This document shows, piece after piece, positions 2,687 through 18,998 of a stretch of 64,000 nucleotides of DNA (position 1 is the stretch's first letter; every line of letters begins with the position of its first letter). Source of the stretch: Elusimicrobiota bacterium. GTDB taxonomy: Bacteria; Elusimicrobiota; Elusimicrobia; UBA1565; UBA9628. The stretch is from assembly GCA_016218575.1 (NCBI GenBank), contig JACRDN010000020.1:62001-126000 (forward strand), given 5' to 3'. The notes beneath the pieces were generated by a model. That model saw nothing but the letters and a program-made list of their open reading frames with translations. It ran no database searches and was not told the origin of the DNA. The position numbers and the translations under genes are program-made.

Positions 2687-3583
2687 CTAATCCTCTTCGG
2701 GCGCGACGGCGGGATGGGCCTCCTGGTAGACTTTCTTCAAGTGATCCAAGGAAATATGAGCATAAATTTGAGTGGTCGCCAAGCTCCTGTGTCCGAGCAT
2801 TTCCTGCACCGAGCGCAGGTCGCAGCCTCGGTTGAGAAGGTGGGTGGCAAAGCTATGGCGGAAGGCGTGCGGCGTGACGGACTTAAGCCACCTGGCGCCG
2901 CGCAGCCAGTTGCGCACGGCCAACGCCACGCCTTGGCCGCTCAGCCTCTCCCCGCGCGCGTTGACGAAGAGAGGCGCTGACCCGGACTCGGGGCGGCCTC
3001 TCGGGAGAGTCTTAAGGTAGTCCCTCAAGGCGCCCAAGGCGGACGTTCCCGCGGGAACTAGACGCTCGCGAGAGCCCTTGCCGAATACCCTGACGAAGCC
3101 CGCCATGAAGTCCACATCCCCCGCGTTGAGGGAGGAGAGCTCCGATCGCCGCAGGCCGCTCGAGTAGAGCAGCTCCACGATGGCCCGGTCCCGGGCGCGG
3201 GAAGGCGAGCGGGGATCCCCCCCCCGGGATAAGAGATCCTGCATCTCCCGCTCACTCAGGAACTTGGGCAAGCGACTCTCCTTCCTGGGCAAGGGAAGAT
3301 TAAGGAAGGGATCGCTCTTCAAGGCACTCTGCCGGCGCAAAAATTGACAGAAGCTGCGCAGGGCCGAAAGACGCCTTAAAAGAGAGTTGCGCCTGAGACC
3401 CTGGTCCTGCTGCAAGCGGGCCAGGTATCCCCGGACATGGGAGCGGTCCAGGCGCTCGGTCTTGAGCTCGGGATGAGCCGCCAGGAAATGCGCCAGATCG
3501 GATTCGTAAGCCCGCAAAGTGTGGGGGGAGTAATTGCGCGAGGCGCGCAGGTCCGTCAAGAACTTTTGCATCCAGACTTTCAC
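2687..3583 (-). CDS. xerC: tyrosine recombinase XerC/XerD
   Basis: Site-specific recombinase that resolves chromosome dimers at dif. The 298-residue length is typical. An N-terminal SAM-like core-binding domain (about 1-95) precedes the catalytic domain with Arg145 (SSGLRRSEL), Lys169 (FGKGSRER), His239 and Arg242 (TPHAFRHSF), His265 (MLGHRSL) and the nucleophile Tyr274 (TQIYAH), so the whole active set is present. XerC versus XerD cannot be settled by eye. The start is a GTG at 3583, with an ATG alternative at 3571. The inverted-repeat element at 3592-3859 lies only 8 bases upstream of the GTG, so any native promoter or leader shared with topA has been displaced; expression may now depend on read-through or on the element's AT-rich end. 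Confidence 0.92.
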   Translation of the reverse strand: MKVWMQKFLTDLRASRNYSPHTLRAYESDLAHFLAAHPELKTERLDRSHVRGYLARLQQDQGLRRNSLLRRLSALRSFCQFLRRQSALKSDPFLNLPLPRKESRLPKFLSEREMQDLLSRGGDPRSPSRARDRAIVELLYSSGLRRSELSSLNAGDVDFMAGFVRVFGKGSRERLVPAGTSALGALRDYLKTLPRGRPESGSAPLFVNARGERLSGQGVALAVRNWLRGARWLKSVTPHAFRHSFATHLLNRGCDLRSVQEMLGHRSLATTQIYAHISLDHLKKVYQEAHPAVAPEED

Positions 3584-3591
3584 GGGCCTTA

Positions 3592-3859
3592 GGCCCTGTC
3601 AAGTAATAATATGATCAATTTGGAGGCCCGAGCTTGAGGCGAGTTCGAGGCGCGACGAGGGAGCATGGCGGTAGCTATGTGACCGAGGAGCAACGAAGAA
3701 ATCGGCCAAGCTCGGGCCTCCCCGAAGGGGCCGAGCGCTTTTGGGCTGCGACCGCGTCGCTCGTCGCTCACATACCGCTGCGGGTATGCTCGCTCCTTGC
3801 TCCTTGTCTCGCTCCAAAATCGCTCGGCCAAATTGATCATATTATTACTTGACAGGGCC
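3592..3859. mobile_element. MITE-like element, 32-bp perfect terminal inverted repeats
   Basis: The two ends (3592-3623 and 3828-3859) are perfect 32-base inverted repeats, beginning GGCCCTGTCAAGTAATAATA. Both are flanked by TTA (3589-3591 and 3860-3862), which looks like a short target duplication; the right-hand TTA is the topA stop codon read on the minus strand. Inside are two more inverted pairs: 3622-3635 with 3708-3721 (14 of 14) and 3729-3744 with 3814-3829 (15 of 16). The single strand could therefore fold into two hairpins on one long terminal stem. No convincing coding sequence is present. It resembles a miniature inverted-repeat transposable element moved in trans; an IS630/Tc1-like target preference (TA) is possible but unproven. 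Confidence 0.85.
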
Positions 3860-6232
3860 TTAAGTGCTTCTTTGCGCCTTGAGCTGGGCCAGAAGCATCT
3901 CGGCCTCGGCGCGGAGCTTGCCGCCCTCTTCCTTGGAAACGGGCCTTAGATTGCGGCACTTGGGGAAGCCCGAGCAGGCCAGAAAATAGCCCCTCTTGCC
4001 TTGCCTGATCCAAAAGGGGCGCTGGCACTTGTTGCAGGGCCGGGACGTGGCCAAAGGCCGGGAGCTCTCGATTTTCTTGCCCTCCGCATCCAAGGAAAAC
4101 GTGGTCTTGCAGGCGGGATAGCCGGAGCAGGCCAGGAAGCGGCCCTTGCGGCCGGTCCGGATCACCAAGGGCTTGCCGCACATGTCGCAGAGCTCTCCGG
4201 TGGTCTCCAGCACGACTTTCTGGCCCTCGGCATTGAGCTGGATCTTGCCCTTGCATTTTGGGAAGGCCGAGCAAGAGAGATACTTGCCGAAGCGGCTCTC
4301 CCTGATGAGCATCATCTCCCCGCAAAGGGGGCACTTCTCGTCCGTCTTCTGAGGCTCCAGTTTTGAAACCTCCATCTCGCGCGACGCGGCCTCGAGCGAC
4401 TTAAGGAACGGGGCGTAGAACTCCCGGACCACGCGGTCCCACATCTCCCGACCCTCGGCGACCGAATCAAGCCTCTCCTCAACCTCGGCGGTGTAGGTGA
4501 GGCTCACGACTTCCGGGAAATATTTCTTGAGCTTTTCGGTGACCAGGATGCCTAGCTCCGAGGGGAGGAGTTTGCGGTCCTTTATCCCGCGCCGGACGTA
4601 GCCCCGATCGACGATGGTCTTTATAGTCGGCGCGTAAGTGGAGGGCCGGCCTATGCCGTGCTTTTCCATGGCCCGGATTAGGCTCGCCTCGTTGTAATGG
4701 GGCGGGGGACTCGACTGGTGCTCCTCGGGCTTGAAGGAAACGAGCGAAACCACGTCTCCCTGGACCAGGAGCGGCAGGCGCCCCTCCTCCTCCTCGGCGG
4801 CCTCGGACTCATCAGTCTCCTCCTGGGAAGAGAAGTTGCCCATGAAAACGCGCAAAAAGCCGTCAAATTTCAGGCTGCGGCCGGTGGCGTGGAACAGGGC
4901 CGGACCGCTCTCGATGTCCGCCGAAACCGTGTCATAAAGGGCCTCTGTCATTTGGCTGGCCGCGAAACGCTTCCATACAAGGTCGTAAAGCCGGCTTTGG
5001 TCATGATTAAGATAGGGCCGCACCTGGTCGGGGGTGCGCAGAATGCTGGTGGGACGGATGGCCTCATGGGCCTCCTGGGCGCGTTGGGCCTTGGTCTGAT
5101 AAACTGGAGGCTCCTTGGGCACGTAGGTTGGGCCGAACTTCTCGCGGAGGAAGCGGGCCGCCTCCTCCGCGGCCGATGTCGAGATCGAGAAGGAGTCCGT
5201 CCTCATGTAAGTGATAAGCCCGACCGGATCGGGAGTGCCCAAGTCCACGCCCTCATAAAGGGTTTGGGCCACGCGCATGGTGCGCTCGGCCGCGAATCCC
5301 AGCTTCTGGGAAGCGGCCTGCTGCAAGGTGCTGGTGGAGAATGGCGGCGAGGGTCGGCGGCGGACCTCTTTTTTCTCGACCTTGACGACCTTGAAGACGC
5401 CCTTGGAAATGACGTCCTGGATTTCCTGCAGCTGCGCTGGCTTCTGCAGCACGGTCAGGCGCACCCGGTATTGCTCCTCGAACAGGTCGAAGGTCTTTGT
5501 GACCTCGATTTTCTGTCCCTTCCAAAGGATGAGCTTGGCCTCGAAAGCGGGCGGGGTCCCCGCCTTCTCCAGAAGCGCGGCCAAGGTCCAGAATTTCTCG
5601 GAGGCGAAGTCCTTGATTTCCTTCTCGCGCTCGGTAAGCAGCCTCACGGCCACGGACTGGACTCTCCCTGCCGAAAGCCCGCTCTGGATCTTGGCCCAGA
5701 GAAGAGGGGAGAGCTTGTAGCCGACCAACCGGTCTATGACCCGCCGCGCCTGCTGGGCCTGGACCAGATGCTCATCAATGAGGCGTGGGCTCGACAAGGC
5801 CTCTGATATGGCCGCGGCCGTGATTTCATGGAAAGTAATGCGGCGTATCTGGTCCTCGTTTAAATGGAGCATTTCCACAAGATGCCAGGCGATGGACTCC
5901 CCTTCGCGGTCGGGGTCGGTGGCCAGATAGACGTACGGGGAGCGGCTGACCAAAGATTTGAGTTCGGAGAGGATTTTTTTGGCCCGGGGCAGGACCACGT
6001 ACTCCGGGGCAAAGCCCTGGTCCACCTTGACTCCGATCTTGCGCACCGGCAGATCGCGCACGTGTCCGAAGGAGCTCTTGACCACGTACTCTCCCTTGAG
6101 CAGGCGTGAAATGGTCCTCTCCTTGGCCGGAGACTCCACCACCACCAAAGCCGGGCCCACCTTTCCCTTGGAAGGGGAGGCTTTGGGCTTGGTCGAAGTC
6201 TTCTTAGAAGGCTTAGATTCCTTTTTTGGCAT
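3860..6232 (-). CDS. topA: DNA topoisomerase I (type IA) with three C4 zinc fingers
   Basis: Relaxes negatively supercoiled DNA by breaking one strand through a 5'-phosphotyrosine. The 790-residue protein has a Lys/Ser-rich start (about 1-26), a Toprim domain starting at ALVVVESPAKERTI with the acidic DPDREGE motif, and the catalytic tyrosine in GLITYMRTDS (around residue 340). The C-terminus has three zinc-ribbon units, each of the form CxxC...CSx(F/Y)PxC, as in many bacterial TopA proteins. It overlaps dprA by 20 bases, and topA next to dprA is a common arrangement. The stop codon at 3860-3862 is also the TTA duplicated by the adjacent inverted-repeat element, so the insertion left the protein intact. 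Confidence 0.97.
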   Translation of the reverse strand: MPKKESKPSKKTSTKPKASPSKGKVGPALVVVESPAKERTISRLLKGEYVVKSSFGHVRDLPVRKIGVKVDQGFAPEYVVLPRAKKILSELKSLVSRSPYVYLATDPDREGESIAWHLVEMLHLNEDQIRRITFHEITAAAISEALSSPRLIDEHLVQAQQARRVIDRLVGYKLSPLLWAKIQSGLSAGRVQSVAVRLLTEREKEIKDFASEKFWTLAALLEKAGTPPAFEAKLILWKGQKIEVTKTFDLFEEQYRVRLTVLQKPAQLQEIQDVISKGVFKVVKVEKKEVRRRPSPPFSTSTLQQAASQKLGFAAERTMRVAQTLYEGVDLGTPDPVGLITYMRTDSFSISTSAAEEAARFLREKFGPTYVPKEPPVYQTKAQRAQEAHEAIRPTSILRTPDQVRPYLNHDQSRLYDLVWKRFAASQMTEALYDTVSADIESGPALFHATGRSLKFDGFLRVFMGNFSSQEETDESEAAEEEEGRLPLLVQGDVVSLVSFKPEEHQSSPPPHYNEASLIRAMEKHGIGRPSTYAPTIKTIVDRGYVRRGIKDRKLLPSELGILVTEKLKKYFPEVVSLTYTAEVEERLDSVAEGREMWDRVVREFYAPFLKSLEAASREMEVSKLEPQKTDEKCPLCGEMMLIRESRFGKYLSCSAFPKCKGKIQLNAEGQKVVLETTGELCDMCGKPLVIRTGRKGRFLACSGYPACKTTFSLDAEGKKIESSRPLATSRPCNKCQRPFWIRQGKRGYFLACSGFPKCRNLRPVSKEEGGKLRAEAEMLLAQLKAQRST

Positions 6233-13083: not shown

Positions 13084-13383
13084 TCAGCGCGCCAGCTTGA
13101 TTGAGATCTGGTCGAGGTATTTCTCAAGGTCGTCATGAGGCCGCGGAATCACGTGCACGGCCACGAGCTCTCCCACCTTTTGAGCCGCGGCCGCGGCCGC
13201 GTCCACCGCCGCGCGCACGGCTCCGACCTCGCCCCGGCACAAAGTGGTCACTAGGCCGCTGCCCACCTTCTCGTAGCCCAAGAGCCTGACCTTGGCGGAT
13301 TTGGCCATGGCGTCCGAAGCCTCGATCATGCCCACAAAACCCTTGGTTTCCACAAGCCCCAACGCCTCGCGAATTTCAGCCAT
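13084..13383 (-). CDS. BMC-H microcompartment shell protein (PduA/EutM type)
   Basis: Hexamer-forming shell protein, 99 residues with a single BMC fold. Typical features are [18 protein letters not shown] at the start, the pore-lining stretch [14 protein letters not shown] (about 39-51), the Ala-rich helix [15 protein letters not shown], and the VHVIPRPH strand end. These hexamers tile the facets and conduct small metabolites. The ATG at 13383 starts at the family's normal beginning; the longer open frame upstream is unrelated. The pore loop is close to PduA/EutM. A second BMC-H at 18032-18328 differs at the pore (KVGTGLVTV), so mixed facets are likely. Confidence 0.95.
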
Positions 13384-13400
13384 ATCAGCCCCCGGAATAG

Positions 13401-13703
13401 TTAATTTTGGTACCCTCGCTCTTCGTAAAACTGGTTGTTGCCCTGGGCCTCGAGGACGGCGTTGCACGAGCCGCACCTCTTGGACGGGCTGTAGGTTCGC
13501 AAGCACTCGTCCTCCTCCGGCCACCATTCCTCGAAAAACATGTCGGCCTTCTTGTGGCAGATGAGGCAGAACCTTTCCATGGCCGCGCCGCAGCAGGCGC
13601 AGAACTTTGGGAAAGCCCCGGCGGCGTGGTGGGTCAAGGAACCGCAAATCCCGCACTGTATGTCTATTCTGACGTTGAACTTCACAGGCTTGTTCTTGGA
13701 CAT
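13401..13703 (-). CDS. small zinc-ribbon protein of the BMC operon
   Basis: A 100-residue protein with four CxxC pairs: CGIC (about 18-21), CACC and CLIC (middle), and CGSC (near residue 82). The pattern of paired knuckles suggests one or two bound zinc ions or other metals. The remainder is rich in aromatic and acidic residues ([11 protein letters not shown]). It is not a recognised enzyme. It lies 4 bases after deoC and 17 bases before the BMC-H gene, inside the operon, so a role in the compartment (metal storage, regulation or cargo assembly) is likely, but the sequence gives no proof. I do not recognise the family. Confidence 0.72.
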
Positions 13704-13707
13704 AGGC

Positions 13708-14712
13708 TCAGTACCCCTTTTTCTCCCCCGAGTCTGCGGCATCCGTGACGATGGCAACACTGGCGGAGGTGCCCAAACGGGTCGCCCCTGCCTCCAGCAT
13801 CGCCTGGGCCGCCTTGGCGTCGCGGATGCCTCCCGACGCCTTGACGCCCATCAAAGGCCCCACGGTCTGGCGCATGAGGCGCACGTCCTCCACGGAGGCG
13901 CCCCCGCCCCCGAAACCGGTGGATGTCTTCACGAAATCGGCTCCCGCCTTCTTGGCGAGAAGACAGGCCCTCGTCTTTTCATCTTGGGAAAGAAGGGCCG
14001 TTTCCAGGATCACCTTGAGCACGCGGCCCCGAGCGGCCTCGCGCACGGTCCGGATGTCCTCGAAAACCGCGGCGTCGTTGCCCGATTTCAAGGCCCCAAC
14101 GTTGATGACCATGTCTATTTCGTCGGCCCCGTTGGCCATGGCGTCGCGGGCCTCTACGGCCTTGACCGTGGAGGTGGTCGAGCCCAGGGGAAAGCCCACC
14201 ACCGTGCACACCTTCACCCCGCTGCCCCTCAGAAGCTGGGCCGCCAAGGGCACGTAGCTCGGGTTGACGCAGACCGAGGCAAAGCAGAATTCCTTGGCCT
14301 CGGCGCAGAGCTTGGCGATCTCCTCCTGGGTGGCGTTGGGCTTGAGCATGGTGTGGTCCACGCAGCGCGCCACCGAGGAGCAGGCCTTGGTCGGATGGCA
14401 GGCCGCCACGCGGTCGGCCCCCAAGGCCTTGAGGTCGCTCTCGCTGCAGCGGGCCAGGGGCTCGCAATGCGGGCAGCAGTCCTCGCGCTCGGCCGGTTTG
14501 GGCGCGAGGGAAGCGGGTTTACGTCCCATAGATGGCCATTCTTCGGAAAAAACCTTGCCGGAGGTGCCTACGGTCACCCGCACTTCCTTGGACGCATGGG
14601 CCTCTGCCCCGGCGTTGGAAGAGCAACAGCACCCATCCTCCTTTAGAAGCCCCTTTTCCGCCAAGACCTTCACGATTTCCTCGACCACTTTCCTGAGCGC
14701 TGCCTCACGCAT
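13708..14712 (-). CDS. deoC: deoxyribose-phosphate aldolase with encapsulation peptide and Cys-rich linker
   Basis: Cleaves 2-deoxyribose-5-phosphate to glyceraldehyde-3-phosphate and acetaldehyde. The aldolase barrel occupies about residues 115-330 and has the Schiff-base Lys262 (FVKTSTG), Lys291 (GVKASGGIR) and the catalytic Asp of the EIDMV motif near 200. The first 24 residues ([22 protein letters not shown]) form an amphipathic helix of the type that targets enzymes into microcompartments. Between them is a linker with many cysteines: CCC at 28-30, CC at 79-80, and Cys83, 89, 105, 111 and 117. The protein is some 80-110 residues longer than plain DeoC. It is the signature enzyme of the SPU-type compartment and overlaps the BMC-P gene by 8 bases. 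Confidence 0.93.
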
Positions 14713-15001
14713 AGCGTTTCACCCGCCCGCACGAGATCACCTGATCCACGATGGCGCAGATCACGGCCCGCACCGGGGCCTTGTCGTCCTTGATGATCGA
14801 ACGGGCCGATCCCCCCTCGTCAACGACCAAAACCACGCTGCCCGGGCCGGAGCCGACCCCGCCGTCCAAGGCAAGGATGGCCTCGCCCAGGGGCTCTTTG
14901 CTGACGGGGTCTATGGGCCTGACCAAAAGAAGCCGTCTGCCGGTCAATGACTTGTGCTTGCGCGTGCCCCAAACATTGCCGATGACCTCTGCGATGAACA
15001 T
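14705..15001 (-). CDS. BMC-P pentameric shell vertex protein (EutN/CcmL), copy 1
   Basis: Forms pentamers that cap the vertices of the icosahedral shell. The 98-residue protein begins [21 protein letters not shown], the usual EutN/CcmL start, followed by RLLLVRPID, then the conserved [25 protein letters not shown] turn and [10 protein letters not shown] at the end. It is one of three BMC-P paralogs in this operon. The sequence is clearly different from the copies at 15005-15289 and 17721-18035, so these are not recent duplicates; compartments often carry several vertex proteins. It overlaps the deoC start by 8 bases. Confidence 0.93.
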
Positions 15002-15004
15002 GAA

Positions 15005-15289
15005 TCAGCGCCTGGCGCGCGAGCCCTTGGTTTGATGGCCGTCCACGATCCCCACGACGGCCGCGTCCACGCAGGGCTCGTCGTCGAAGGCGACGACGGC
15101 CTCGCGGGCCGCTACCCAAAAAACGTTCTCGCTGGCTCCCGCCCCGACCGCGTCCGCGGCCACCAGGGGCGGCCCGGAAACCTGCCCGTCCTCCCAGCGC
15201 AGGGGCTCGATGAGAAGGAGTTTCTTTCCCTCTATCTTGGGCTCCTGCCGCGAGCAGAACACTCGGCCGACCACGCGGGCGAGCTTCAT
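15005..15289 (-). CDS. BMC-P pentameric shell vertex protein (EutN/CcmL), copy 2
   Basis: A 94-residue EutN/CcmL-family protein: MKLARVVGRVFCSRQEPKI, KLLLIEPL, AADAVGAGASENVFWVAARE, and VDAAVVGIVDGH near the end. The start at 15289 shares ATGA with the rpiB-like stop, so translation is coupled. The frame is open further upstream, but only within the rpiB-like gene. Among the three vertex proteins this one has AAREAVVAFDDEP in place of the usual short GSSAR loop, so it may occupy distinct vertices or interact with another partner. Function otherwise as for other vertex proteins. Confidence 0.92.
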   Translation of the reverse strand: MKLARVVGRVFCSRQEPKIEGKKLLLIEPLRWEDGQVSGPPLVAADAVGAGASENVFWVAAREAVVAFDDEPCVDAAVVGIVDGHQTKGSRARR

Positions 15290-15741
15290 CCGGCCCTCGC
15301 GTATTTTTTCTCGATCTCCGCGATCTTGGCCAGGCGCCTTTCGTGGCGGCCGCCCTCGAAGGGCGTGGAAAAGAAGACGTCGAGCATCTCCATGAGGGCC
15401 GCCTCCCCATGGGTTTTTCCCCCAAGACACAGGACGTTGGCGTCATCGTGGGCCGCGGCGAAGCGCGCCGAGACGGAGTTGTAGGCCGCCACCGCGCGAA
15501 CGCCCGGAATCTTGTTGGCGGCCAGGGCCACGGCCCCGCCGAAGCCGTCCAGGAGCACGGCCTTGTCGAAATCCCCGCGCGCCACGGCTTCGCCTGCAAG
15601 CAAAGCCACGTCGGGATAGTCCACGGCCTCCAGGGAATGGCAGCCGAAATCCGAGACCTCGTGGCCGGCCTTCTGCAGGCGCCTCTTGACGAGTTCCTTG
15701 GCCGAAAAGCCCCCGTGGTCCGAGCCCAAGACGATTTTCAC
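15286..15741 (-). CDS. RpiB-like sugar-phosphate isomerase of the BMC operon, catalytic Cys replaced
   Basis: A 151-residue protein of the RpiB/LacAB isomerase family: VKIVLGSDHGGFSAKE at the start, DYPDVALLAGEAV, then the phosphate-binding ANKIPGVRA and a DANVLCLGG stretch. In ordinary RpiB the active-site motif is (I/L)CGTG with a catalytic Cys; here it reads LLDGFGG with Asp65, so the base catalyst is changed. Some relatives use Glu or other residues for this step, so it may still isomerise a pentose phosphate, but with altered substrate or chemistry. The GTG start at 15741 overlaps the BMC-T stop (GTGA). RpiB homologs are typical of SPU compartments. Confidence 0.85.
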   Translation of the reverse strand: MKIVLGSDHGGFSAKELVKRRLQKAGHEVSDFGCHSLEAVDYPDVALLAGEAVARGDFDKAVLLDGFGGAVALAANKIPGVRAVAAYNSVSARFAAAHDDANVLCLGGKTHGEAALMEMLDVFFSTPFEGGRHERRLAKIAEIEKKYARAG

Positions 15742-16289
15742 TTGCCCACCGCCGCCAGCATCTGGGAGTCGGCCTGGGGGATCACCACATGGCCGATGAG
15801 CATCGCCGCGGGCACCGCCGAGACCCCGGCCGCCACGGCCGAGCGCACGGCCGCCGGCTCTCCGGCTAGGCTCACGTAGCCCTTGCCTCCCCCCACCACG
15901 GTCTTGACCTCGAGGACATGGACCGCGGCGGCCTTGGCCGCGGCGTCCGCCGCGCGGACCGCGGCGATGGAGTCCTTGGTTTCGATGATTCCGACGGCTT
16001 CCAGGGATTCCACCGCGATCCTCTTGTCGAGGGCGGCCAGGACGGCGGCGTGGATATTGCGGATGATCACCTCGTCGATCAAAGCGCCCCCCGCCACGGC
16101 GCGGCCGGCCCTCAAGGCCGACTCGACCTCTCCCACAGGGCCCGAAACGAGGATCACGTACTTGCCGCGGGCCAGGACCTGGGTCCTGACGAGCTTGATA
16201 GAGGCGGCCTTGCACATGGCGTCGGCCGCCTCCACGCCCTTGGCGATCGAGGAGGCTTCGATGAGTCCCACCGCGATATTGGCTTGCAT
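15738..16289 (-). CDS. BMC-T tandem-domain shell protein, PduT-like
   Basis: A 183-residue protein with two fused BMC domains (about 1-92 and 93-183) that forms trimers looking like hexamers. It begins ANIAVGLIEASSIAKGVEAADAM, close to PduT, and the second half opens with EAVGIIETKDSIAAVRAAD. In PduT the second domain has a pore cysteine that binds a 4Fe-4S cluster, in a GGKCY-like context; here the same place reads GGGKGY (Gly137), so this protein lacks that cysteine and probably does not hold an iron-sulfur cluster there. It shares GTGA with the rpiB-like gene and is 8 bases after the aldehyde dehydrogenase. Confidence 0.93.
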   Translation of the reverse strand: MQANIAVGLIEASSIAKGVEAADAMCKAASIKLVRTQVLARGKYVILVSGPVGEVESALRAGRAVAGGALIDEVIIRNIHAAVLAALDKRIAVESLEAVGIIETKDSIAAVRAADAAAKAAAVHVLEVKTVVGGGKGYVSLAGEPAAVRSAVAAGVSAVPAAMLIGHVVIPQADSQMLAAVGK

Positions 16290-16297
16290 GTCTCTCC

Positions 16298-17734
16298 TCA
16301 ACAGATGCGAAAGTAGCCGACCAGGCTGCAATGAAGCGGCCGGGCGAAATGGGAGGCCTTGGTGAGGCCGTCCCCCGTGGGCGTGCCTATGGACATGGAG
16401 GCGTAGCCCTCCCCCATGCCAAGCCCGTAAAAGGTCGGAGCGTTCTTGACGTAAATCGAGCACTGCATGCGCCGGCCCATGCGGGTCAAATGGTCCACGT
16501 TCATGGAGTGCATGGAGGCCGTATGGCGGTTGCCGCCCTCCGCCTCTCGGGCAAGCTCTATGGCCTTGTCCACGTCGGGGGCCGCGGTCACCGGCAGGAC
16601 GGGCATGAGCTGCTCGGTCCAAACCAGGGGATGGTCGTTGGGGACCTCGGCCCAAAGGATGCGCACGCTTTCCGGGACGTCGAGGCCCGCGGCCCGGGCG
16701 ATGACGCGGGCGTCACGACCCACGAACTCCCGGTTGAGCCTCGGCTCCTTGCAGCCGCGTCCTCCCTCCTGGATCACGAGGCGAGTCACGGCGTCCGCCT
16801 GGGAGGGCTTGAGCTCCCAGGCGCGTGAGTCCCGGCGCAGGGACTCGAGAAACCTCTCCCGCGCCGCGGCGGTCACGATCACTTCCTTCTCGGCCGTGCA
16901 GAGAACGTTATTGTCGAAGGAGGCGCCGGTCACGATGTCGGCGGCGCATTTCGGAAATTGAGCGGTCTCATCCACCACGGCGGGAGGATTTCCCGGGCCC
17001 GCGGCGATGGTCTTGCAGGCCTTCCCCGTGGTCATGGCGACCTTGACTATGGCCGGCCCCCCGGTCACGAGGTTGACGCTCACCGCGGGATGAGCCAAAA
17101 GGGCGCGGGTGAATTCCTGAGAGGCCGGGGCCACGGTCGAGATAAGCCCAGGGGGCGCCCCCGCCTCCACGGCGGCTTGGCTCAAGACCCTCATGGCCTC
17201 GGCCGAGCACTTGGCCGCGGCGGGATGGGGCGCGAACACCACGGCGTTGCCCGCCGAGAGGATGGAAATCGAGTTGTTGATCACCGTGGCCGCGGGGTTG
17301 GTCGAGGGGGTCACCGCGGCCACGACCCCGTAGGGCGCGTACTCGACCAAGGTCAGGCCCTTGTCTCCGGTGTAGGCCAGGGACTTCAAATCCTCCACGC
17401 CGGGGGTCCTCAGGGCGCAGACAAGGTTTTTCTGGACCTTGTCCGCCTCACGGCCCATTCCGGTTTCCTCTCGGGCAAGGCGGGCCAGGCGTTCGGCGGC
17501 GGCGACCGCGGCCTTTCTCATGGCCTCGATGACCTTTCGGCGGGCCTCCAAGCCCAGCTCTTGGAAGGCCTCCTGCGCCCTTTGCGCGGCGGCCACGGCC
17601 CCGTCCACGCTAGAGTGCGCCACGGGATCGCCGGCCGCGGCGGAAAGCACGGCCAAGGCTCCCCCGGAGGCGGAACCCGCCTCCAGACGCTTTAAGACCT
17701 CGCCCACGATGAGGGCTATCTCATCTGGCCGCAT
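16298..17734 (-). CDS. CoA-acylating aldehyde dehydrogenase, PduP/EutE type, with encapsulation helix
   Basis: Oxidises an aldehyde (here most likely acetaldehyde from DeoC) with NAD+ and CoA to acyl-CoA. The 478-residue length suits the family. The catalytic Cys279 is in FDNNVLCTAEKEV. Upstream are the cofactor-binding elements VAAVTPSTNPAATVINN and the LVTGGPAIVK loop. The first 20 residues ([19 protein letters not shown]) form an amphipathic helix joined by a Gly/Ala-rich linker, the normal arrangement for encapsulation. It overlaps the preceding BMC-P gene by 14 bases. No dedicated NADH-recycling alcohol dehydrogenase was found in the operon. Confidence 0.94.
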   Translation of the reverse strand: MRPDEIALIVGEVLKRLEAGSASGGALAVLSAAAGDPVAHSSVDGAVAAAQRAQEAFQELGLEARRKVIEAMRKAAVAAAERLARLAREETGMGREADKVQKNLVCALRTPGVEDLKSLAYTGDKGLTLVEYAPYGVVAAVTPSTNPAATVINNSISILSAGNAVVFAPHPAAAKCSAEAMRVLSQAAVEAGAPPGLISTVAPASQEFTRALLAHPAVSVNLVTGGPAIVKVAMTTGKACKTIAAGPGNPPAVVDETAQFPKCAADIVTGASFDNNVLCTAEKEVIVTAAARERFLESLRRDSRAWELKPSQADAVTRLVIQEGGRGCKEPRLNREFVGRDARVIARAAGLDVPESVRILWAEVPNDHPLVWTEQLMPVLPVTAAPDVDKAIELAREAEGGNRHTASMHSMNVDHLTRMGRRMQCSIYVKNAPTFYGLGMGEGYASMSIGTPTGDGLTKASHFARPLHCSLVGYFRIC

Positions 17735-18035
17735 GGACGGGGTCGCTTGATTTCCTGAAGACGATCTTGCCGCCTTGCTCCACCGAGTCCACGATGGCGA
17801 AGATCACGGCGTCCACGGGACTCCCGGAAGTCCGCGAGGTTTGGCGCGCGCTCGAGCCCTGGACGAGCAGCACGAGTTCACCCTCCCCCGCTCCCACGGA
17901 GTCCACCGCCACCAAGGGGTTCCCCTTGGGATTGTCGGATAGGTCGACGGGCTGCGCCAGCATGAGCTTGGACCCGATGAGCTTCGGGTCCTTCAGGGTG
18001 CAGACGACGTTGCCGGTGACTCGTGCGAAAATCAT
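17721..18035 (-). CDS. BMC-P pentameric shell vertex protein (EutN/CcmL), copy 3
   Basis: A 104-residue EutN/CcmL-family protein: [67 protein letters not shown]. This is the copy closest to canonical EutN, with the VGAG..E..L...GSSAR loop intact. The C-terminus has an added basic tail ([12 protein letters not shown]). Its start shares ATGA with the upstream BMC-H stop and its end overlaps the aldehyde dehydrogenase start. It is the first vertex gene of the operon and so probably the most strongly expressed of the three. Confidence 0.95.
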
Positions 18036-18328
18036 TTCCTGCGGCTCAGGTTCTCGGCCAAGGAGATGGGCATCTTCCCCTCCAAGTCCGGATGCGGCTG
18101 GGGAATCACGTGCACGGCGATGAGCTCCCCGACCTTCTGGGCCGCAGCGGCGCCGGCGTCGCAGGCGGCCTTGGCCGCGGCGACCTCTCCCCGGAACAGC
18201 ACGGTGACAAGCCCCGTTCCCACCTTCTCGTAGCCCACGATCCTAACGTCGGCGGCCTTCACGGCCGCATCCGCGGCCTCAATGCACGCCACCAATCCGC
18301 GCGTCTCGATCATTCCTAATGCAGTCAT
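18032..18328 (-). CDS. BMC-H microcompartment shell protein (first in operon)
   Basis: A 98-residue single BMC domain: [26 protein letters not shown], pore stretch [37 protein letters not shown], then a short polar tail. It forms hexamers for the shell facets. A strong ribosome-binding site (GGAGG, 5 bases before the ATG at 18328) suggests high translation, as expected of the major shell protein. Compared with the copy at 13084-13383 the pore has Thr instead of Ser and the C-terminal tail differs. It sits between pduL and the BMC-P gene. Confidence 0.95.
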
Positions 18329-18359
18329 GTTTCCTCCATGTAAGTGGCGGGGGTCTCTT

Positions 18360-18998
18360 TCATGCGATGTTGACCTTCTCTCCGTTCTTGATCCAGGCCG
18401 CGTTGGCCTCGTCCGTGTCCAAATGGAACTCGAGGCTGAATTGGTCCGAGATCCGGCACAGCACCTGCTCGAAAACGAGCTCCCGGGGCCCGCCCACGCC
18501 GGCTCGGACCCGCACGACCTCCCCGTCCTTGATGCCCATGGCCTGGGCCTCGAGCGGGTGAAAATGAATGTGCCGCCGGGCGATGATGAGGCCCTCTTTG
18601 ATCTCGAGCGTCCCTGCCGGGCCGATCACGCGCACCGGGGCCGAGCCCTCGAGTTTGCCCGAGTCGCGGATGGGAGGGCGCAGGCCCAAAGCCTGCGCGT
18701 CGGTCTGTGAAATCTCGATCTGGGTCTTGGGGCGGTGGGGGGCGATCAAGCGCACGTTCTCGATCTTGCCCTTGGGCCCCTCCACGGCCACTGTTTCGTA
18801 GCAGGCCCAGAACCCGGGCTGCTTGACCGAGCGGAATTTCCTAGGCTGGCGGGCCTTGCCGAAAAGCGCGTCCCAATGCTCCTGGGTGAAATGCGCGTGG
18901 CGGTTGGAGACCCCGACCGGTATCGGGCTCTTGGAGCGCTCCATGCGCGACACGATCTCGGCCGTGATCTTCTTGGCCAGCTCGGGATTCTGTTCCAT
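18360..18998 (-). CDS. pduL: phosphate acyltransferase PduL
   Basis: Converts acyl-CoA and phosphate to acyl phosphate and CoA, recycling CoA inside the compartment. The 212-residue protein has the metal-binding histidines of the two barrels: [10 protein letters not shown] (His34, His36, His41) and [12 protein letters not shown] (His143, His145, His147). The first 22 residues ([21 protein letters not shown]) form a typical encapsulation helix, followed by [12 protein letters not shown]. It is the second gene of the operon, 20 bases after tpiA. The acetyl phosphate could be used for ATP by an acetate kinase that lies outside this window. Confidence 0.94.

Follow-up and report, generated by a model that had tools for sequence, protein, structure and literature searches.

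The window, by which we mean the whole 64,000-nt stretch of Elusimicrobiota DNA analyzed here, contains at positions 3592–3859 a non-coding element of 268 bp, situated between topA and a xerC-like gene and found among dispersed copies of the same family. The features of the locus are:

2687–3583, minus strand: xerC-like tyrosine recombinase, the host gene downstream of the insertion, which adjoins topA in relatives
3589–3591, no strand: left copy of the target duplication (TTA), one of two equal 3-bp flanks
3592–3623, plus strand: left terminal inverted repeat of 32 bp, made up of the tip GGCCCTGTCAAG and TAATAATATGATCAATTTGG; the tips of the family resemble ISAzo13 ends
3622–3721, plus strand: arm 1, a hairpin of ~100 nt with tandem G-A internal loops, in which the plus strand folds (model R2, 92.1 bits)
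3722–3728, no strand: short linker between the arms, delimited by the arm positions of model R2
3729–3830, minus strand: arm 2, inverted and of a different arm type, in which the minus strand folds (model R2, 100.4 bits)
3828–3859, minus strand: right terminal inverted repeat, identical to the left end at 32/32 positions
3860–3862, no strand: right copy of the target duplication, which doubles as the stop codon of topA (TAA, read on the minus strand)
3860–6232, minus strand: topA (DNA topoisomerase I), the host gene upstream of the insertion

The original prediction described perfect 32-bp inverted ends between two TTA triplets, the right-hand one being the stop codon of topA, and a xerC start (at 3583) located 8 bases from the left end of the element; all of this agrees with the coordinates above. 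Its second internal inverted pair was given correctly as 15/16 (3729–3744 with 3814–3829), whereas the first, given as 14/14, was slightly low and is in fact 15/15 (3622–3636 with 3707–3721). The predicted fold of the element is very stable in comparison with shuffled sequences (z = -13.6 for the plus strand and -10.0 for the minus strand), with 0/200 shuffles reaching the same stability.

At the topA–xerC junction the element is absent from 27 of the 29 relatives examined, the remaining two being unreadable (L191 ends too early and L206 is not cleanly readable). The gap between the two genes in relatives is mostly -3 to 43 nt, with extremes of -27 and 71 nt, versus 277 nt here. Joined without the element, the flanks read AGAAGCACT-TAA-GGCCC-GTG, which corresponds to the topA stop codon, five bases and the xerC start; the insertion shifts xerC from 5 nt to approximately 276 nt past the topA stop, and it is possible that the element supplies xerC with a new leader. 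Insertion exactly in the stop codon is harmless to TopA, the last 298 amino acids of which are 78% identical to the homologue in a relative.

In the genome that contains the window (2.82 Mb in 23 contigs), the 25-bp end occurs 23 times at ≤3 mismatches, and a reversed control pattern 0 times. These copies of the end lie in approximately 15 places, several of them cut off by contig ends, and about a dozen contig ends of the assembly lie within such elements. Three further full-length copies without inserts are 97–99% identical to the element. Most copies have ISAzo13-type ends (GG..., with a TAA/TTA duplication), and tips of type B (GGGGTCGCGTCA) and type C (GGGCTCGCAATG) enclose the same interior. 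In one copy the left arm is inverted, and others lack one or both arms. A perfect palindrome of 46 bp (L042 1501–1546, G000 C22:40090–40135) has lost both arms and has kept the ends and the TTA duplication.

Among relatives the elements differ in their tips but retain AATAATATGA and the interior; within most elements the left and right tips are the same or nearly the same. One element (L128 1501–1769) has left and right tips of two different types and the flanks CTA/TTA, and is perhaps recombinant. Equal 3-bp flanks were present at 32 of 43 distinct insertion sites, all 32 being TAA or TTA. The flanking triplet is the exact stop codon of an open reading frame of ≥80 codons at 22/43 sites, compared to 9.4% of nearby TAA sites. 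This exact-stop criterion provides the main figure, as versions that depend on a gene caller are weaker: a stricter gene call gave 13/23 non-disruptive sites versus 28/406, with an imperfect caller that placed many sites inside spurious open reading frames. A preference for stop codons, or survival there, is therefore general to the family, and the data fit both. Insertion into stop codons suggests a way for such elements to spread while leaving genes intact.

Transposases of the ISAzo13 family (PF07592, NF033519) were identified in 8/117 relatives and in 8/295 genomes of the phylum, and a search for this family in the genome of the window found none. Copies with intact ends are L163 (1203 bp) and L169 (1288 bp), and partial ends were obtained from G037 and G002. 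Beyond the GG, the ISAzo13 ends match the ends of the element family at 16–19 of 24 positions, whereas most T(A/T)A-GG sites elsewhere in the genomes score 6–13; the higher-scoring of these control sites probably include unlisted element ends. The flanks of the two intact copies are TTA/TAA (L163) and TAA/TTA (L169), neither being identical over 3 bp, and the single right flanks of the G037 and G002 ends are TTA. A PF01609 (IS4/IS5-type) transposase was considered as partner, and none was found in the genome of the window. When long elements bearing the AATAATATGA end were sought by pattern, short pairs alone were recognized, and plasmid and phage collections contained no DNA similar to the element. 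A contig of 10.8 kb from the viral collection IMG/VR (L160) carries the end-plus-arm pattern, and the genome of the window holds an IS630-like transposase fragment with an internal stop (G000 C14:76322–76537; L268, L279).

Because many copies are present in the genome, most of them with ISAzo13-type ends, and because ISAzo13-family transposases with matching ends occur in relatives, the element is a MITE. The non-autonomous transposon originally proposed is thus borne out by dispersed copies, TAA/TTA duplications, empty sites and, in relatives, transposase elements with similar ends. The check originally proposed, a search of this and related genomes with the end, returned dispersed copies; transposase-bearing elements with similar ends were encountered in relatives but not in the genome of the window itself. 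We infer that the copy in the window was most likely mobilized in trans by a transposase of the ISAzo13 family.

Complete elements each contain two arms of ~100 nt, belonging to two different types. In an alignment of 126 distinct arms, 92.6% of the cells are paired, versus 67.6% after shuffling, with two-sided changes at 28 of 29 pairs and a covariation score of 0.570 (0.161 when shuffled, ≤0.103 for slid structures). This alignment was fitted to the model, and for this reason each arm type was also tested on an alignment made from sequence alone; 95.3% and 92.1% of the cells are paired there, with repeated two-sided changes at 22/30 and 21/25 pairs. The first 11 arms alone show two-sided changes at 20/29 pairs. 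Tandem GA/GA is retained in 92/126 and 89/126 arms at two 2x2 loops, and another 2x2 loop has a coordinated GC/AA alternative to tandem GA/GA. In most arms the G-A mismatches keep their positions, while the neighboring pairs flip. At well-paired positions G-U was counted 98 times versus 46 times for A-C, a modest excess in cells that are not independent and with G-T wobbles occurring in DNA too, and one position is G-U in 109/119 arms. The excess and the fixed G-U somewhat favor folding of the arm strand as RNA more than as DNA. For arm 1 the fold is strand-specific, scoring 92 bits on one strand and 32 on the other. The fold itself is probably what evolution preserves, and its covariation makes an RNA function of the element plausible. 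Searches of Rfam returned chance-level matches alone, none of them above the gathering cut-off of a family. Some elements (L127, L143, L212) contain extra nested hairpins of the GTCCCGAAC...GTTCGGGAC type or long inserts within the arms.

The two arms behave as a unit. They face inward in 64/64 two-arm elements of an enlarged set, and by Ward clustering the two arms of each element fall in different clusters in 64/64. With average linkage, the arm types were different in 63/64 elements of an earlier set; in the enlarged set the two-way split by this method separated one outlier, and three clusters gave 53 elements with different and 11 with the same type. Arms are not required for persistence, as copies with one arm or none exist (L028, L080, L042). 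Of 295 Elusimicrobiota genomes, 87 have a match to the arm model at E ≤ 0.001, approximately 54 of them at E ≤ 1e-12, and families outside the class are included; weak hits in small genomes could be fortuitous. The exact end-plus-arm pattern had 15 matches in GTDB genomes, titled Elusimicrobia or merely 'bacterium'. The symmetry that was at first regarded as unusual is instead the rule across a phylum-wide family, and not peculiar to the copy in the window.

The same arm pair was found between ISAzo13-type ends, between two kinds of IS630-type ends at CTAG (CTAGTGTAGTGT... and CTAGTGCTCCGACC...) and with a TACTGAGC end, and possibly still other end types carry it. IS630-family elements with matching tips are present in G012 C132 and G047 C10. 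A tree was built for each arm type, both of them rough as the arms are short; they require at least 12 and at least 7 changes of end class, and a single clade of IS630-ended arms is rejected on both (p 0.009 and 0.015). Since the same arm pair occurs on several end types, these trees indicate that the module, and not one transposon lineage, is conserved. ISAzo13 and IS630 transposases are distantly similar to each other, a likeness that may ease the exchange of ends. At one locus (L249, G016 C78) an IS630-type transposase (PF13358) with a frameshift lies between two arms, next to a small Cro/C1-type helix-turn-helix gene (1597–1950); of the IS630-type ends that enclose them, one is degraded and one good. 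Other IS630-ended MITEs (L092, L106, L111, L090) lack these arms and contain another interior hairpin pair, of the CCGGCGAAAGCCGG type.

We consider it quite probable that the locus is explained by an ISAzo13-ended MITE carrying a conserved two-arm folded module that recurs on different ends. An ISAzo13-family transposase acting in trans would have moved the element, duplicating the 3-bp target TTA and hitting the topA stop codon. Each arm is predicted to fold on the strand reading into the element, as a stem broken by regularly spaced tandem G-A pairs, and RNA polymerase or a replication fork arriving from either flank would make a G-A arm first. As the arms face inward, the folded product would be the same in both insertion orientations. 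The fold may then act at the RNA level, in transcripts that read through from the flanking gene, and we infer that the arms most likely persist through a function of the fold. As a more tentative extension, which we hold to be possible though not probable, the two-arm module could be a folded nucleic acid in its own right, RNA or single-stranded DNA, that extends across the phylum and has a protein partner dedicated to it; transposons would be its vehicle and not its origin.

It is somewhat unlikely that the arms act instead as single-stranded DNA, in which case the displaced or the lagging strand would fold and be read by a host or mobile enzyme, aiding mobilization. The two imperfect hairpins, inverted to each other, are REPIN-like and comparable to REPIN/RAYT systems or to the end hairpins of IS200/IS605, a third factor reading the arms would ease their sharing among the ends of different DDE transposons, and the strand specificity of the fold in arm 1 is in line with such a role; however, inverted ends and target duplications indicate DDE transposases rather than HUH enzymes, and the excess of G-U over A-C also argues against DNA. 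We regard it as unlikely that a single autonomous IS630-like transposon had the arms as its subterminal repeats and gave rise to all the MITEs by internal deletion. Such an arrangement is seen in L249, where the arms flank a transposase, but this is one degenerate locus only, the other IS630 and ISAzo13 loci searched contained no arms, and the arm trees mix end classes. Palindromes self-correct, and the tips are equal left and right yet differ between copies, so that covariation might be a neutral by-product of hairpin-templated repair acting on functionless old passengers; this is quite improbable, as repair should turn G-A mismatches into Watson-Crick pairs, yet the mismatches stay while their neighbors flip, and both arm types are kept across end classes. 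A fixed structural RNA or terminator of a topA–xerC operon, suggested by a very stable fold between two co-directional genes, is refuted by the empty sites and the copy number, as many dispersed copies were found in place of a single one, the element is absent at this junction in relatives and no Rfam family is significant.

The conserved module on changing ends sets the family apart from bacterial MITEs as they are usually viewed, namely as deletion products with conserved ends and a dispensable inside: here the interior is conserved phylum-wide down to non-canonical base pairs, and the ends change. REPINs, which are RAYT-linked, likewise combine two imperfect hairpins in inverted orientation across a short linker and occur in many intergenic copies, but their REP units measure 20–40 bp, versus ~100 nt for the arms described here, and they are not known to have terminal inverted repeats and a target duplication of the kind seen in the present element. 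ISAzo13-family insertion sequences share the end sequence and the TA-rich target, and differ in being 1.2–1.3 kb long, in encoding a transposase and in that no arms were found in them.

Folded transcripts are well known from bacterial MITEs such as RUP, Correia/NEMIS, BOX and CIR (PMC2229807, PMC3049150). RUP of Streptococcus pneumoniae, a MITE of IS630-Spn1, is similarly non-autonomous and highly base-paired, with ends matching an insertion sequence and a TA-containing target; it is 107 bp long, and a conserved pair of non-identical arms does not form part of its description in the relevant sections of these papers (PMC2229807, PMC3049150). CIR of Caulobacter and Brucella resembles the element in having two long inverted repeats, that is two arms and a linker, with a structure conserved between species, but is only partly MITE-like and contains a GANTC motif; the passages describing it mention neither a G-A ladder, end switching nor ISAzo13/IS630 ends (PMC2229807). 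Correia/NEMIS and BOX, as portrayed in sections of both papers, are small dispersed repeats of which the folded transcripts can act on adjacent mRNA, and BOX often overlaps the 3' ends of genes (PMC2229807, PMC3049150). Correia/NEMIS differs in folding end-to-end without arms, according to its section in PMC2229807, and BOX in its modular A-B-C organization. No literature on MITEs of Elusimicrobia, on ISAzo13 MITEs or on this family was found in a search that lay mostly within openly accessible publications.

With this family, the function of folded MITE interiors becomes directly testable. The family also provides a marker for Elusimicrobiota, a phylum in which assemblies are interrupted at these repeats.

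Beside the topA–xerC region, the window holds a separate cluster of open reading frames on the minus strand (13084–18998), which we take to be a microcompartment-like operon. Recognized by eye from their translations, its members presumably comprise a DeoC-like aldolase, an RpiB-like isomerase, shell-like proteins, an aldehyde dehydrogenase and a PduL-like phosphotransacylase.
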